This document shows, one piece after another, positions 55,695-61,436 of a DNA stretch of 64,000 nucleotides (positions within the stretch are counted from its first letter, which is position 1; the number at the start of each line of letters is the position of its first letter). Made by a program: the position numbers and the translations under genes. The stretch spans positions 1-64,000 of the forward strand of contig JADLHW010000053.1 in the NCBI GenBank assembly GCA_020848615.1, in the 5' to 3' direction. The notes beneath the pieces are model-generated. The model saw nothing but the letters and a program-made list of their open reading frames with translations, made no database searches and was not told the origin of the DNA. The DNA comes from Thermoleophilia bacterium. GTDB lineage: Bacteria; Actinomycetota; Thermoleophilia; Miltoncostaeales; Miltoncostaeaceae.

Positions 55695-57062
55695 TCAGGC
55701 GGCCGGCAGGCGCACCTCCGCCACCAGGCCGCCGCCGTCCCGGGCCCGCAGGGTCGCCGTTCCGCCGGATGCCCGGGCGAGGCGCTCGACGATGGCGAGA
55801 CCCAGGCCGGAGCCCTCACGGCCGCGCGTCGTCCAGAACCGCTCGAACGCCGAGGCGATCTGCTGCGGGGTCATGCCGGGGCCCCGGTCCGCGACCGTGA
55901 TCACGACCCAGCCGTCCTCCCGCGCCATGCCCACGCGCACCTCCCCGTGCGCACCGCTCGCGAGCAGCGCGTTGTCGAGGAGGTTGTCGAGGATCTGCTC
56001 CACGGATCCGGCGACCGCGCGGGCCCGCACGGACCCCTGGGGGGCGTCCAGCTCCATGCGGACGGACTCCTCCTCGGCGAGCGGCGTCCATGCCGCCACG
56101 CGCTCCCGCACGGCCTCCCCCACCTCCGTGGCGACGGGGGCCCCCTCCGCGCGGTCGGCCCGCACGAGGGTGAGCAGCCCCTCCACCAGCCTGCCCAGCC
56201 GGTCCGCCTCGCCCAGGGCGCCGTCCAGGTCCTCCCGTCCGCCCGGTGGGATGTCGCTCTCCAGGTTCTCCAGCCGCAGCCGCAGGGCGGTGAGCGGGGT
56301 GCGGAGCTGGTGGGAGGCGTCCGCGACGAAGTCGCGGTGCGACGCGAGGAGCGCCTCCAGCCGGGCGGTGGAGACGTTGAAGCGGCGGGCGAGCTCGCGC
56401 ACCTCCGCGGGGCCGCGGTCCTCGTGCGCCCGCACGGTCAGGTCCCCGTCGCCGGCCCGGCTCGCCGTCGCGCCGAGATCCTCCAGGGGACGCGCCACCG
56501 AACGGGCCAGCAGCCACCCGATGACCGCGACGGCGGCGAGCACGACGGCCGCGATGCCCACCAGGGCGAGCCGGTACCGCAGCACACGGTCGTCGAGCTC
56601 GCCGGCGCTCACGCTCACCCGCACGGCGCCGTGCACGCGCCCGCCGGAGGCCGATGGCACCGCCACGTAGACGATGCGGTGCCCGAGGGTCTCGGACCTC
56701 CGCTCCCCCACCGCGGGCCGTCCCGTGAGCGCGGTCGCGATCTCCGGCCGGCTGCTGAACGACCGGCCCTCCGGGCGGGTCGTGTCGGTGTCGACCAGCA
56801 GGGTGCCGTCGCGGTCGACGATCACCGCCCGGGAGTCGGTGCCGGCCGCGTACCGGTCCACGATCACACGCAGGTCGTCGTACGGTCCGCCGCGTTCCAG
56901 GAGGTCCTCGCTGATCGACGCGAGCGCCACCGCGTCCCGTTCGATGCGGGACTCGAAGGCCTGCCGCTCGGTGCGGCCGTGGATGACCCCGAGGGGGATC
57001 TCCAGCGCCAGCAGCACCACCGCCGCAAGCGCCAGGTAGCTCGCGACGAGGCGGCGGGTCAC
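55695..57062 (-). CDS. Membrane histidine kinase (partner of the regulator at 57059)
   Basis: 455 residues. GTG start overlaps the regulator stop (GTGA). TM1 about 5-26, extracytoplasmic domain about 27-155 (PAS-like, with SRAVIVDRDGTLLVDTDT), TM2 about 165-187, HAMP, HisKA with the phospho-His in FVADASHQLRTPLTALRLRL, and HATPase with DNLLDNALLASG, VADRGPGM and EGSGLGLAIVERLA. The PhoR/BaeS-like layout is complete. The signal is unknown; the divergent ApbE/ferric-reductase cluster is the likeliest target through the paired regulator. Confidence 0.92.
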   Translation of the reverse strand: MTRRLVASYLALAAVVLLALEIPLGVIHGRTERQAFESRIERDAVALASISEDLLERGGPYDDLRVIVDRYAAGTDSRAVIVDRDGTLLVDTDTTRPEGRSFSSRPEIATALTGRPAVGERRSETLGHRIVYVAVPSASGGRVHGAVRVSVSAGELDDRVLRYRLALVGIAAVVLAAVAVIGWLLARSVARPLEDLGATASRAGDGDLTVRAHEDRGPAEVRELARRFNVSTARLEALLASHRDFVADASHQLRTPLTALRLRLENLESDIPPGGREDLDGALGEADRLGRLVEGLLTLVRADRAEGAPVATEVGEAVRERVAAWTPLAEEESVRMELDAPQGSVRARAVAGSVEQILDNLLDNALLASGAHGEVRVGMAREDGWVVITVADRGPGMTPQQIASAFERFWTTRGREGSGLGLAIVERLARASGGTATLRARDGGGLVAEVRLPAA

Positions 57063-57715
57063 GGTTCGCGCAGGCGGAAGCCGATGCCGCGCACCGTCTC
57101 GATGAGGCCCGGGTCGCCGAGCTTCTTCCGCAGCGCGCTGATGTGCATGTCGATGGCCTTGCTGGGGCCGTACCAGGTGGTGCCCCACACCTCCCGCAGG
57201 ATGCGGCGGCGGTCCACCGCTGCGCCCGGGTCCTCGGCGAGCAGCGCGAGGACCTCGAACTCCTTCGGCGTGAGGGGGACCTCGCGGCCGTCCACCGACG
57301 CCCGCCGGGCCCGGGTGTCCACCGTCAGGGGACCGGCCTCCAGGGTGCGGGGCTGCTCCGGCCCGGCGTCCACGCGGCGCATCACCGCGTGGATGCGCGC
57401 GATGAGCTCCCGCATCCCGAAGGGCTTCACCAGGTAGTCGTCCGCCCCCAGCTCCAGGCCCACGACCCGGTCGACCTCCTCACCCCGGGCGGTGACCATG
57501 ATGATGGGGACGCGGGACCGGGAGCGCAGCTCGCGCGCGACCTCGTAGCCGTCCATGTCCGGCAGGCGCAGGTCGAGCAGCACCATGTCGGGCTCGGGGG
57601 CCTCGAGCGCCTGCCGCCCGTTGCCGGCCCGCTGCACCTCGAAGCCCTCACGCCGCAGCCCCTCCGCGAGCGGCGCGGCGATCGCCTCGTCGTCCTCCAC
57701 GACAAGCAGCCTCAT
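57059..57715 (-). CDS. OmpR-family response regulator
   Basis: 218 residues from ATG 57713-57715. Receiver: VVEDDEAI acidic patch, phospho-Asp in MVLLDLRLPDMDGYEV, Thr in IIMVTARGEEV, Lys in ADDYLVKPFGMRE. Output domain with EVPLTPKEFEVLALLAE, RRRILREVWG and the recognition helix KAIDMHISALRKKLG. First gene of the minus-strand operon regulator, histidine kinase, Ser/Thr kinase, J-domain, amidotransferase. It diverges from the ApbE cluster with 155 bases between starts, a region that contains tandem 11-bp repeats suited to this regulator class. Confidence 0.93.
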   Translation of the reverse strand: MRLLVVEDDEAIAAPLAEGLRREGFEVQRAGNGRQALEAPEPDMVLLDLRLPDMDGYEVARELRSRSRVPIIMVTARGEEVDRVVGLELGADDYLVKPFGMRELIARIHAVMRRVDAGPEQPRTLEAGPLTVDTRARRASVDGREVPLTPKEFEVLALLAEDPGAAVDRRRILREVWGTTWYGPSKAIDMHISALRKKLGDPGLIETVRGIGFRLREP

Positions 57716-57757
57716 GGCCGGATCATTGCGCGTCGGCCCCGGCGCCGCGCGGAGCCC

Positions 57758-57801
57758 TGGACGAACCCTTACCCGCCGCTGGGGAACCCCTGGGCAACCG
57801 C
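57758..57801. promoter_or_regulatory. Tandem 11-bp repeats, candidate operator of the adjacent regulator
   Basis: TGGGGAACCCC (57780-57790) and TGGGCAACCGC (57791-57801) are adjacent 11-bp units with nine shared positions. A looser copy, TGGACGAACCC, starts 22 bases earlier at 57758, keeping the 11-bp register. A separate inverted repeat GGACGA-N8-TCGTCC lies at 57824-57843. All sit between the regulator and the ApbE cluster. Confidence 0.55.
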
Positions 57802-57870
57802 AGGGCCCCACCGGGGGCCGGCCGGACGACACTGGGATCGTCCGCTGGAACGACCCCCGGAGGTCCACCC

Positions 57871-58284
57871 GTGAACCCCGTCCACCGTCGCATCGTCGCA
57901 GCCATCGTCGGCCTCGCCGCCGTCCTCGGCGTCGTCGCCCTGTCCCGCACCGCGGCGCTCGGGCCCGGCGAATCGTCCGCGGCTCCGGCCGCGGCCGCCA
58001 CGACCACCACCACGACCACCGGGACGGGCGCCGCGGCGGCCGCGAGGGAGCTCGCGAGGGCACGCGCCGACCTCAAGCGCGCCATCGCCGAACGCGCCGC
58101 CGCCAGGACCACGCCACAGACGCGCACCGTGGTGCGGCAGGTGCCGGCGGCCACCCCGGCCGCGCAGACCTGGAGCGACGACGACCACGGGTACGACGAC
58201 GACGACCACGAGTACGGCGACGACCACCGGGACGACGACGACCACGGGCACGAGTACGACGACGATCACGGGGAGGACGACTGA
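57871..58284 (+). CDS. Membrane-anchored protein with Asp/His-rich C-terminal tail
   Basis: 137 residues, GTG start with CCGGAGG seven bases upstream. One N-terminal membrane segment (RRIVAAIVGLAAVLGVVALS), an Ala/Thr linker containing seven consecutive Thr, a charged helix (ARELARARADLKRAIAERAA) and then about 38 residues made almost only of Asp, His, Tyr, Glu and Gly, with motifs such as DDDDHEYGDDH. Such a tail should bind divalent or ferrous metal. No named family recognised. First gene of a five-gene cluster whose starts and stops overlap. Confidence 0.8.
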   Translation: MNPVHRRIVAAIVGLAAVLGVVALSRTAALGPGESSAAPAAAATTTTTTTGTGAAAAARELARARADLKRAIAERAAARTTPQTRTVVRQVPAATPAAQTWSDDDHGYDDDDHEYGDDHRDDDDHGHEYDDDHGEDD

Positions 58285-58598
58285 TGGACGCGCGCACCCT
58301 CAAGGGCTACGCCGGCGCAGTGACGGCCCTGGCCGTGACGGGCGGCTGGTTCGCGATCTCCGGGAACCCCTTCCCCGGAACGCAGGCCGCCCCCGCAGCC
58401 CCGCCGGCCGCGACCGCCGCGACGACGGTCACGGACCCCGCCGTCCGGCGCGACCTGGCGCTCGCCCGGGCGTACCGCCGGACCGCCGCCCAGGTGCGCG
58501 GCGACACCGCCGTCCGTGTCGAGGCCGCGGCGAACGCCACCCCCCGCACGGTCACGATCACCCAGGCGGCGCCCGTCGCCGCCACCCGGAGCTCCTGA
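58284..58598 (+). CDS. Small exported protein of the ApbE cluster
   Basis: 104 residues, ATG overlapping the previous stop (TGATG). N-terminal hydrophobic segment (GYAGAVTALAVTGGWFAISG), an Ala/Pro/Thr linker and a charged region DPAVRRDLALARAYRRTAAQV reminiscent of the helix in the preceding protein, ending TPRTVTITQAAPVAATRSS. No cysteines, no haem motif and no clear flavinylation sequence (SGATxT type). Its stop overlaps the ApbE start, so it is co-translated with it. Confidence 0.72.
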   Translation: MDARTLKGYAGAVTALAVTGGWFAISGNPFPGTQAAPAAPPAATAATTVTDPAVRRDLALARAYRRTAAQVRGDTAVRVEAAANATPRTVTITQAAPVAATRSS

Positions 58599-59464
58599 TG
58601 CGCACCCGCTCGTTCCGCGCGATGGGCACGGAGGTGGAGTTGCTGGTCGACGCCGCCGGCACCGTCGCCGATGTCGCCATGGGGGCCGCCGAGACGGAGG
58701 TGCGGCGGTTGGAGGAGGCGCTGTCGCGGTTCGACCCGCGCTCGGAGCTGTCCCGGCTGAACCGCCTGGGCCGGCTGGTGCCGGGCCCGGACCTGTTCCG
58801 CGTCGTGCACGCGGCGCTGGACGCCCGCGACCGCACCGGCGGGCGGTTCGACCCCACCGTCCTGCCCGCCGTGCGGGCCGCCGGCTACGACCGCGACCTG
58901 GGCGAGGTCCGGGACGCGGACCCCGGTCCCGCGGGCCCCCCGGTGCCGGGCGGCGGCGGCGTGCGGTTCGACACCCGCACGGGTGAGATCGTCCTCGGCC
59001 CCGGGGTGCAGCTCGACCTGGGCGGGATCGCCAAGGGCGACGCCGCCGACCGCGCCGTCCGGATCCTCGCCCAGGCGGGACCGGCCGTCGCCGTCGTGGG
59101 CGGGGACGTCGCCGTGAGCGGCCCGCGCCGCGGCGGCGGCGGCTGGCCCATCGCGGTGGACGGCACCGGCCTGGTGCTCAGCATCGCGAGCGGTGGCCTC
59201 GCGACCTCCGGCACCGACCGGCGGCGCTGGACCCGCGGCGGGGTGCCACAGCACCACGTCATCGACCCGGCCACCGGCGCGCCCGCCTGCACCGACCTGG
59301 TGCGCGTGACGGCCTCGGCGCCCAGCGCCACCGAGGCGGAGGCCCTGGCCACCGAACTGCTGCTGCGCGGCAGCTCCGACGGCGGGCGGCGGGCCGGGGA
59401 GCTGGGCGTGGCGGCGGTCCTCACCACCGCCGTCGGCACGGTCCTGGCGGGGGTGCTGGCGTGA
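58598..59464 (+). CDS. apbE: FAD:protein FMN transferase (ApbE)
   Basis: 288 residues. Transfers FMN from FAD onto a Thr/Ser of exported flavoproteins. Family marks: FRAMGTEVELLVD, the FDPRSELSRLN segment, TGGRFDPTVLP, VQLDLGGIAKGDAADRA, GGDVAVSG, IASGGLATSGT and QHHVIDPATGAPA (the GGxxTSG and HHIIDP-like sites). No signal peptide is obvious, so it may act in the cytosol or be exported by another route. ATG overlaps the previous stop; the next gene starts 4 bases before its end. A classical FMN-binding-domain partner is absent from the cluster. Confidence 0.94.
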   Translation: MRTRSFRAMGTEVELLVDAAGTVADVAMGAAETEVRRLEEALSRFDPRSELSRLNRLGRLVPGPDLFRVVHAALDARDRTGGRFDPTVLPAVRAAGYDRDLGEVRDADPGPAGPPVPGGGGVRFDTRTGEIVLGPGVQLDLGGIAKGDAADRAVRILAQAGPAVAVVGGDVAVSGPRRGGGGWPIAVDGTGLVLSIASGGLATSGTDRRRWTRGGVPQHHVIDPATGAPACTDLVRVTASAPSATEAEALATELLLRGSSDGGRRAGELGVAAVLTTAVGTVLAGVLA

Positions 59465-60057
59465 CGGACCCCACGTTCTGGATCGCCGCCCGGGTGACCG
59501 GGCTGGTGGCCTTCGGCCTCATGACGGCCACCATGCTGTTCGGCCTGCTGGTCGCGGGCCGTGGCCGCCCGGGGTGGGCGCGGCCCGCGGACGTCGTCGA
59601 CCTTCACCGGACGCTGTCGCTGGGGGCGCTGGTGATGACCGGGCTGCACGGGATCGCCCTGGTGCTGGACCGCGCGGTCGACATCCCCGTCACCGCCCTG
59701 CTGGTGCCGGGCATGGTGCCGTACCGGCCGCTGTGGACCTCCCTCGGCGTGGTCGCCGCGTGGGTCGCGGTGGCCGTCCACGTCTCGTTCTCGCTGCGCA
59801 AGCGGATGGGGCCGAGGGTGTGGCGCAGGCTCCACTTCGCCACCTACGGCGCCTTCGCGCTGGCGGCGGCGCACGGCCTGGCCGCGGGCACCGACAGCGG
59901 AAGGAGCTGGGCGCTGGGGCTGTACGGTGGGGCCGTGGGCTCGGTGGCGGCGGCGACGGCGTGGAGGGCCGGCGTGGAGCGGCGGAAGGCGGCCCGGCCG
60001 GCGACGCGGACGGCGCCGACGCGGAGGAACGCCCCGCCGGTCTCGGAGGCCGCATGA
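59461..60057 (+). CDS. Ferric-reductase-like (MsrQ-type) haem membrane protein
   Basis: 198 residues with about six hydrophobic segments. Candidate haem-ligand histidines sit in helices: VVDLHRTLSLGALVMTGLHGIAL, VAVAVHVSFSLR, RRLHFATYGAF and ALAAAHGLAAG. This is the pattern of the ferric reductase-like transmembrane domain that passes electrons across the membrane. It lacks NADPH and FAD domains, so electrons must come from quinol or a partner flavoprotein, consistent with the adjacent ApbE. GTG start at 59461 (GTGA-type overlap with ApbE); stop overlaps the next ATG. Confidence 0.87.
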   Translation: MTDPTFWIAARVTGLVAFGLMTATMLFGLLVAGRGRPGWARPADVVDLHRTLSLGALVMTGLHGIALVLDRAVDIPVTALLVPGMVPYRPLWTSLGVVAAWVAVAVHVSFSLRKRMGPRVWRRLHFATYGAFALAAAHGLAAGTDSGRSWALGLYGGAVGSVAAATAWRAGVERRKAARPATRTAPTRRNAPPVSEAA

Positions 60058-60356
60058 CCGCGCGCAGGCGGCGCATCGCGGCCGTCGGCCTGGGCCTGGC
60101 GGCCGCGACCGCCGCGGTCACCGCGAACCTGGTGCTGCTCGGCCAGGTCCGGCCGGAGGACCCCATGGGACGCCTGAGCCCCGCGCTGGGCACCGCCGTG
60201 CGGTCCACGGGAACCGCCCCGGCGCCGGCCGACACCCGGACGACGACGGCGCCCGCGACGACCACCACCCCGACGGTGACGACCCCGCGGGACGGCGACG
60301 ACGACAAGGACCACGACCACGACGGCACCGGCGGCGACGACCACGACGACGACTAG
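60054..60356 (+). CDS. Small membrane-anchored protein with Asp/His-rich tail
   Basis: 100 residues, ATGA overlap with the previous gene. Arg-rich start and a membrane segment (IAAVGLGLAAATAAVTANLVLLG), a Thr/Pro linker, and a terminal stretch DGDDDKDHDHDGTGGDDHDDD (21 residues, shown here as two parts DGDDDKDHDHDG and TGGDDHDDD) rich in Asp and His. The design matches the first protein of the cluster, so two metal-binding tails bracket the flavin/haem genes. Confidence 0.78.
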   Translation: MTARRRRIAAVGLGLAAATAAVTANLVLLGQVRPEDPMGRLSPALGTAVRSTGTAPAPADTRTTTAPATTTTPTVTTPRDGDDDKDHDHDGTGGDDHDDD

Positions 60357-60458: not shown

Positions 60459-60692
60459 ATGTCCTCGCACGTGTTCGACCTCAGTGAGACCGCCACCCAC
60501 GAGCTCGTGGCGAAGCAGCTGCACTCCCTCGCGGACCAGCTCGCCAAGGGCGAGCTCACCCTCGCGTACGACGAGTGGCACGCCCCCACGGTGGTCATCG
60601 ACCCCGTCGAGGTCGTCGTCGACCTCAAGCAGAAGCGCCACCACGTCGAGCTGCACATCGACATGCGCTGGCCCACCGAGGTCCAGCACTAA
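60459..60692 (+). CDS. amphi-Trp domain protein
   Basis: 77 residues from ATG 60459 with GGAAGGA ten bases upstream. It fits the amphi-Trp family: a helix HELVAKQLHSLADQLAKGELTL, strand pairs APTVVIDPVEVVVDLKQKRHHVELHIDMRW and the near-terminal Trp. The family is small, cytosolic and of unknown function, found often in actinobacteria and archaea. Followed by a perfect hairpin terminator, so it is probably transcribed alone. Confidence 0.82.
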   Translation: MSSHVFDLSETATHELVAKQLHSLADQLAKGELTLAYDEWHAPTVVIDPVEVVVDLKQKRHHVELHIDMRWPTEVQH

Positions 60693-60710
60693 CTCCGGCA
60701 GCACCCCCGG

Positions 60711-60738
60711 TCCCGCCCCGGCACATGCCGGGGCGGGA
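60711..60738 (+). terminator. Hairpin terminator after the amphi-Trp gene
   Basis: Perfect 12-bp arms TCCCGCCCCGGC / GCCGGGGCGGGA around an ACAT loop, 18 bases after the stop codon. It separates this gene from the Crp/Fnr gene that starts at 60786. Confidence 0.8.
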
Positions 60739-60785
60739 TACAGCCCTCCCCATCGGCGCCGGGACCTGAGGTACCGTAGGCCGCG

Positions 60786-61436
60786 ATGCAGTGGCCGCTC
60801 TTCGACGGCGTCCCCGACGCCGATGTGCAGCGCGTGCTGTCGATCGCCCGGCGGCGCGCCTTCCAGCGGGGCGAGGTCGTGTTCCACGTCGACGACCCGG
60901 CGGACACCCTCCACCTGGTGGTCTCCGGCCGGTTCGCGGTGCGCGTGCAGACGGCGGTGGGCGACATCGCCATCCTCAACGTGGTGGGCCCCGGCGAGAT
61001 GTTCGGGGAGCTCGCGCTCATCGGCGACGGACGGCGGTCCGCGACCGTGGAGGCCCTGGAGCCGGCCGAGACGCGCTCCATCCACCGGCCGGACTTCGAG
61101 CGGCTGCGGGCGGAGCACCCGGCGGTGACCGAGGTGATGGTCGCGGTGCTCGCCGCCCGCGTCTCCCGGTTGTCGCGGCACCTGCTGGAGGCCCTGTACC
61201 TGCCGTCCGACAAGCGGGTGCGGCGGCGCCTCGCCGAACTCGCCCGCGTCTACGCCCCCGGCGGCGGCGAGGCCCTCATCCCCCTGCGGCAGGAGGATCT
61301 GGCGGGGCTCGCCGGCACCTCCCGCGCCACGGTCAACCGCGTGCTGCGGGAGGAGGAGGCCCGGGGGACGGTGCTCCTGGGACGGGGCCGCACCACGGTG
61401 CTGGACGTCGCCGCGGTGGAGCGCCGCGGGCGGTAG
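60786..61436 (+). CDS. Crp/Fnr family transcription regulator
   Basis: 216 residues. Cyclic-nucleotide-binding-type beta barrel about 10-115 with VVFHVDDPADTLHLVVSGRFAV and GPGEMFGELALIGDGRRSATVEAL; the GELAL..G..RSATV phosphate cassette is close to that of cAMP-binding Crp, so cAMP or a related nucleotide is plausible. Dimer helix, then a winged-helix domain with LRQEDLAGLAGTSRATVNRVLREEEARG (recognition helix SRATVNRVL). No cysteines for an Fe-S cluster, so not Fnr-like in oxygen sensing. Stops directly against the convergent NHL gene. Targets not evident. Confidence 0.92.
   Translation: MQWPLFDGVPDADVQRVLSIARRRAFQRGEVVFHVDDPADTLHLVVSGRFAVRVQTAVGDIAILNVVGPGEMFGELALIGDGRRSATVEALEPAETRSIHRPDFERLRAEHPAVTEVMVAVLAARVSRLSRHLLEALYLPSDKRVRRRLAELARVYAPGGGEALIPLRQEDLAGLAGTSRATVNRVLREEEARGTVLLGRGRTTVLDVAAVERRGR

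Follow-up and report, generated by a model that had tools for sequence, protein, structure and literature searches.

A C-terminally tagged membrane protein as a candidate ApbE substrate in an MsrQ-like flavinylation cluster of Thermoleophilia

A five-gene cluster in a 64,000-nucleotide stretch of a Thermoleophilia genome (hereafter, the window) encodes an ApbE family member, an MsrQ-like haem protein and, directly upstream of apbE, a small membrane-anchored protein, B, that may represent a new class of ApbE substrate. On the proposed reading, to which we assign a probability of about three in four, the five genes form a flavinylation system of the MsrQ-like type: B, by means of a C-terminal tag, replaces the FMN-binding-domain protein, and its terminal serine is flavinylated by ApbE. 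Both the covalent attachment of FMN to B and the choice of the serine that would bear it are inferred.

Gene content of the cluster and its recurrence in relatives

The cluster comprises A, B, apbE, the MsrQ-like gene and C, in that order on the forward strand, and the start-to-stop overlaps reported in the preliminary description are confirmed at 1–4 bases: A/B and B/apbE overlap in TGATG, and apbE/haem gene and haem gene/C overlap by 4 bases. A (57871–58284, +) is an open reading frame with coding potential and without a Pfam match, comprising one N-terminal transmembrane (TM) segment and an Asp/His-rich tail at the C-terminus. B (58284–58598, +; 104 residues; no Pfam or NCBIfam match) comprises an N-terminal TM helix followed by an Ala/Pro/Ser/Thr-rich tether and is the proposed flavin carrier, with the C-terminal Thr-Arg-Ser-Ser (58584–58595, +) as the proposed flavinylation tag and Ser104 as the proposed FMN acceptor. 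C (60054–60356, +), an exported protein with the N-terminal sequence 'TANLVLLG...PMGRLSP', again has an Asp/His tail. Domain matches also bear out the divergent two-component system beside the cluster: an OmpR/PhoB-type response regulator (57059–57715, −; PF00072 and PF00486) and a sensor histidine kinase (55695–57062, −; HAMP, HisKA and HATPase matches in Pfam/NCBIfam), directed away from the cluster. Downstream of the cluster, genes for an amphi-Trp domain protein and a Crp/Fnr-type regulator are present at 60459–61436, and sister genome G001 (L045) retains both beside its copy of the cluster.

The product of 58598–59464 (+) matches PF02424 (FAD:protein FMN transferase, E 7e-48; 163.8 bits versus a cut-off of 25.6) and 13 solved ApbE sequences in the PDB, and is thus an ApbE family member with predicted FMN transferase activity. 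The product of 59461–60057 (+) is an MsrQ-like/Ferric_reduct transmembrane haem protein (PF01794, E 2.5e-7, above the cut-off) encoded beside apbE. Four of its histidines (H49, H63, H125 and H138) are invariant across 37 homologues, consistent with the pair of haem-binding sites reported for proteins of the MsrQ-like type. The remaining component of an MsrQ-like cluster, an FMN-binding-domain protein (PF04205), is absent genome-wide.

The same plan recurs in relatives. In particular, gene neighbourhoods compared across 40 ApbE loci repeatedly follow the order divergent two-component system, A, B, ApbE, MsrQ-like protein and C, and a scan of named genomes recovered this plan in Chloroflexota, including the complete genome of Herpetosiphon aurantiacus (kinase/regulator, acid-tail protein with two PepSY domains, B, ApbE, Ferric_reduct). 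The preliminary description's view of the cluster as an undescribed flavin/haem module is supported; the module is conserved in relatives, and its tailed proteins recur. The 3.64-Mb genome of the window has two ApbE copies, the second in a cluster on contig C24 (10956–12909; L043:5633–7586) consisting of a small exported protein ending in MRSGAS, ApbE and Ferric_reduct, with no acid-tail proteins and no adjacent two-component system. A NuoF-like partner is present in some relatives (L077).

The known ApbE substrate families searched for do not account for the cluster. The missing FMN-binding partner of the preliminary description is missing from the whole genome: a whole-genome domain search returned no FMN_bind protein (best E 0.44), ruling out a hidden one elsewhere. 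FMN_bind was likewise absent from the relatives searched in the window's family (f1) and from 27 of the 40 genomes of named loci, the complete H. aurantiacus genome among them; across 101 relatives, ApbE is present in 48 and FMN_bind in only 9, and FMN_bind, where present, adjoins a distinct, divergent ApbE. DUF2271 and DUF3570 were not found in the window genome, in B itself or in 23 tag-type genomes, 18 of which have a single ApbE. NqrB-like sequences amounted to two weak matches, both in other genomes, and these other substrate families were accordingly rejected.

The proposed C-terminal tag of B

ApbE acts on the acceptor motif D-x-x-[S/T]-G-A-[S/T] and places FMN on its final residue; ApbE prefers Thr over Ser, and engineered flavin-tags perform best at a protein terminus (PMC12052999). 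B of the window ends in A-T-R-S-S, with no Gly at −2, no Ala at −1 and no upstream Asp. Relative to the core [S/T]GA[S/T], the window B has TRSS, its counterpart in the C24 cluster has SGAS (an exact match), and the family has [S/T]-[G/R]-[G/S/A]-S. The preliminary description had seen no SGATxT-type site in the small proteins; on this point it was probably mistaken, as the C-terminus of B carries a conserved [S/T]-x-x-S motif similar to such a site.

The motif, scored as a terminal [S/T]xxS(x), is associated with the position 5′ of apbE and with the absence of FMN_bind. Specifically, it is present on the gene directly 5′ of apbE in 50/58 loci having Ferric_reduct and lacking FMN_bind, in 0/18 loci having FMN_bind, and in ~1–5% of background genes (1/172 and 11/230 in clean sets; an earlier background figure, 50/1195, included B duplicates). 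In a held-out Chloroflexota sample, drawn once the pattern was fixed, with upstream ORFs chosen by coding score alone and with a few of its genomes previously seen, the motif is present in 57/73 loci, and several of the remainder place two further residues after it (TRSSRK, TGSSKP, TSGGSGH). Among B proteins with a terminal Ser, a set that includes nine hand-added loci without a haem gene and several ORFs that the gene caller missed, position −3 is Ser/Thr in 52/52 (background 12/59; p 2e-20), position −2 is Gly/Arg in 38/52 (background 14/59), and position −1 is Gly/Ser/Ala/Thr in 44/52. Because this count is restricted to members ending in Ser, the pattern is not self-selected. Asp at −6, missing in the window B, is present in 8/72 members (e.g. 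L055, L056 and L062).

B sequences are very divergent and their endings are alike: ATRSS, TRTS, SSGAS, SSGGS and RSGAS in Thermoleophilia; TRSSR, TGGS and RSGGS in Chloroflexota; TTSGSK/R in Acidimicrobiia; and ITRGS in Alicyclobacillus. TCG, TCA, TCC and AGC codons are all used for the terminal Ser, which is kept also where B and apbE do not overlap. Since both Ser codon families are used and the residue persists without overlap, a start-site or Shine-Dalgarno artefact is ruled out. Counting against the proposal, the motif is missing from a few of the genes next to apbE (e.g. L073, L114 and L117); in two genomes, G058 (L073/L213) and G443 (L235/L214), the apbE-adjacent B has lost the tag and a second B–haem pair keeps it. 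In L217, at ~1440–1460, B stops early (VTLPR) and another frame just downstream reads LTTTRTS directly before apbE, reflecting either a sequencing error or a real frameshift.

The remainder of B has the features of a tether. In its AlphaFold2 model (pTM 0.33), the TM helix is joined by one further helix and an extended terminus, with no globular or flavin-binding fold, so that a cryptic flavin fold was rejected. Flanking charges (inside-positive) predict an N-in/C-out topology in 46/52 members, and the segment following the TM helix has a median length of 86 residues, of which 65% are Ala, Gly, Pro, Ser, Thr or Gln and almost none Cys. B is linked to apbE in genome neighbourhoods, and a search with a model of B, performed independently of ApbE, returned strong matches nearly all of which adjoin ApbE and/or the haem gene, the exception being one match at a contig end.

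Similar endings are present on other proteins. Lipoproteins preceding solitary ApbE genes (no haem gene) in the same family end in DSDSGQS, DSTSKQS, DDDSKQS or DDSSDAS, which fit the motif together with its Asp; those 5′ of haem-less apbE in L052, L062, L064, L068 and L076 end in DxxS[GKD][QA]S or SRHS; and L056 has DSFSGGT two residues short of the end. These lipoproteins are a second candidate substrate family. MsrQ-like proteins in L057 and L058 themselves have tag-like ends (IGATGAS in L057, and IAATGGS and VVATGGS), which sit on long low-complexity C-terminal extensions (L057:2423–4316, L058:879–1892).

ApbE sequences divide along the same line. In a 98-row tree, a single branch separates tag-type from FMN_bind-type ApbE (SH-aLRT 94), and the split corresponds to one change, a value that 0/500 shuffles matched, with the reservation that the two sets came from different searches, which may add to their separation. 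ApbE residue 207 (window numbering) is Asp in most TRSS-type clusters, Thr, Ala or Gln in most SGxS-type clusters, and Tyr in FMN_bind-type ApbE. As a specificity residue it was rejected: the raw association gave a Fisher p of 0.003, but its co-variation with Arg(−2) of B failed once phylogeny was considered, with no support in independent pairs, and a role in specificity is not proven because the pattern follows clades.

Proposed mechanism and alternative readings

In the proposed mechanism, ApbE would transfer FMN from FAD to the hydroxyl of Ser104 of B, and B would serve as a small, membrane-anchored, largely unfolded tether with a flavinylation tag at its end. The haem membrane protein would then connect the tethered FMN with the quinone or cytosolic side, exchanging electrons between the two, and the FMN would pass them to an extracytosolic acceptor, electron flow probably having this direction. 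The electron source may be NADH, via a NuoF-like protein and ferredoxin, in some relatives (L077), and is probably quinol in the window and others. ApbE of the window has no apparent signal peptide, as is the case for FMN_bind-type ApbE in these taxa; the same holds in all tag-type loci, though the proposed target is exported. Because ApbE lacks an apparent signal peptide and the C-terminus of B is predicted to lie outside, FMN would have to be attached before or during export, a point that weighs against the proposal.

The window B is proposed as the ApbE substrate although TRSS deviates from the acceptor motif, and the deviation counts against the assignment because Gly, Ala and the upstream Asp are missing, as does the preference of ApbE for Thr. 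This degeneracy would suit an alternative in which ApbE flavinylates the haem protein or some unlinked target, and in which B carries no FMN but is a structural subunit that docks one of ApbE and the haem protein through its C-terminus; the tag-like C-termini of the L057 and L058 MsrQ-like proteins point the same way. We regard this alternative as unlikely, however: the genomes tested contain no known substrate domain beyond the two weak NqrB-like matches, the strict Ser/Thr at −3 together with the terminal Ser mirrors the acceptor motif, and the same ending is present on unrelated lipoproteins beside solitary ApbE.

The tails of A and C bear on a further alternative, in which the cluster is an iron or copper reduction or sensing module whose Asp/His tails bind metal and feed the two-component system, flavin being secondary. 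The tails noted in the preliminary description are real and above chance: short exported acid-tail proteins occur within ~5–6 genes in 26/68 tag-type loci, Chloroflexota included, as compared to 0/20 FMN_bind-type loci (up to 6 kb flanks; the first FMN_bind controls had 1.5 kb flanks, and tails and two-component systems were recounted with longer ones) and 0/78 background short genes. Acid-tail exported proteins occupy the A position in relatives, Chloroflexota included, and homologues of C follow the haem gene in 11 related loci. In Herpetosiphon, A carries two PepSY domains (L096:3552–4523), indicating that the middle of A varies while its TM start and acidic end persist. The regulatory association suggested earlier also extends to relatives, with response-regulator and kinase homologues near 35/68 tag-type loci. 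The presence of regulator and kinase nearby would fit metal sensing, as would the resemblance of the kinase to heavy-metal sensors, among many others, and the pairing of iron transporters with some MsrQ-like clusters (PMC8238504). Nevertheless, many clusters with B and ApbE have no such tails, or have tails rich only in Gly and Asp, the window cluster has no metal transporter, and the kinase match to heavy-metal sensors is far under the family cut-off, making a metal module quite improbable as the main function. The metal role first suggested for the tails is neither borne out nor contradicted: the tails are acidic without being particularly rich in His, and many related clusters have weak tails or none; they may dock partners or bind cations, and the two-component system may have a role in the cluster.

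That ApbE acts only as an FAD pyrophosphatase supplying non-covalent FMN, an activity known for Treponema Ftp (PMC4767422), with the B ending unrelated, is very remote, as it leaves unexplained both the acceptor-like ending of the adjacent gene and the split of ApbE by partner type.

Flavinylation of the C-terminal tag of B thus remains our preferred reading, and its extension beyond the window appears likely: widespread natural ApbE substrates without a folded flavin domain, among them short tethers anchored in the membrane, some lipoproteins and the tails of some haem proteins, would bear a C-terminal Ser-FMN in Chloroflexota, Thermoleophilia, Acidimicrobiia and some Bacillota, which would explain many genomes with orphan ApbE.

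Relation to known flavinylation systems

MsrQ-like clusters with FMN_bind, substrates of the DUF2271, DUF3570, Flavodoxin_4 and FMN_red types, and a remainder of orphan ApbE have been described in open papers, and ~4% of ApbE genomes had no known substrate (PMC8238504). Text searches of the open, non-subscription literature returned no report of C-terminal-tag ApbE substrates or of such a cluster. Tagged B offers a specific, conserved and easily tested candidate substrate for a large share of orphan ApbE clusters, and tag-type clusters include that of a cultured organism with a complete genome, H. aurantiacus. If the proposal is correct, a flavin borne by a bare, flexible peptide with no folded domain can serve in extracytosolic electron transfer, and natural minimal flavin-tags exist with altered sequence preference (TRSS, SGGS).

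The closest known systems are the MsrQ-like flavinylation clusters of Actinobacteria (Meheust et al. 2021, PMC8238504), which likewise place ApbE beside a PF01794 six-helix di-haem membrane protein and include a NuoF-like partner, as in L077; the window differs in having tagged B in place of any FMN_bind protein in cluster or genome, and adds the acidic-tail proteins A and C and the two-component system. DUF2271 and DUF3570 substrates (PMC8238504) resemble B in lacking FMN_bind and in being encoded next to an orphan apbE, and they carry an [S/T]GA[S/T]-type site, as B may; they are folded domains with internal sites, whereas B has no recognised domain and its proposed site is at the extreme C-terminus. 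FMN_red proteins (PMC11334425) carry a flavinylation motif on an unstructured C-terminal extension, as proposed for B, but keep a folded flavin-binding core that B lacks. The C-terminal flavin-tag engineered by Tong et al. (2021; reviewed in PMC12052999) is a short terminal peptide recognised by ApbE, as the end of B would be; that tag is man-made, whereas the tag of B would be natural and conserved.
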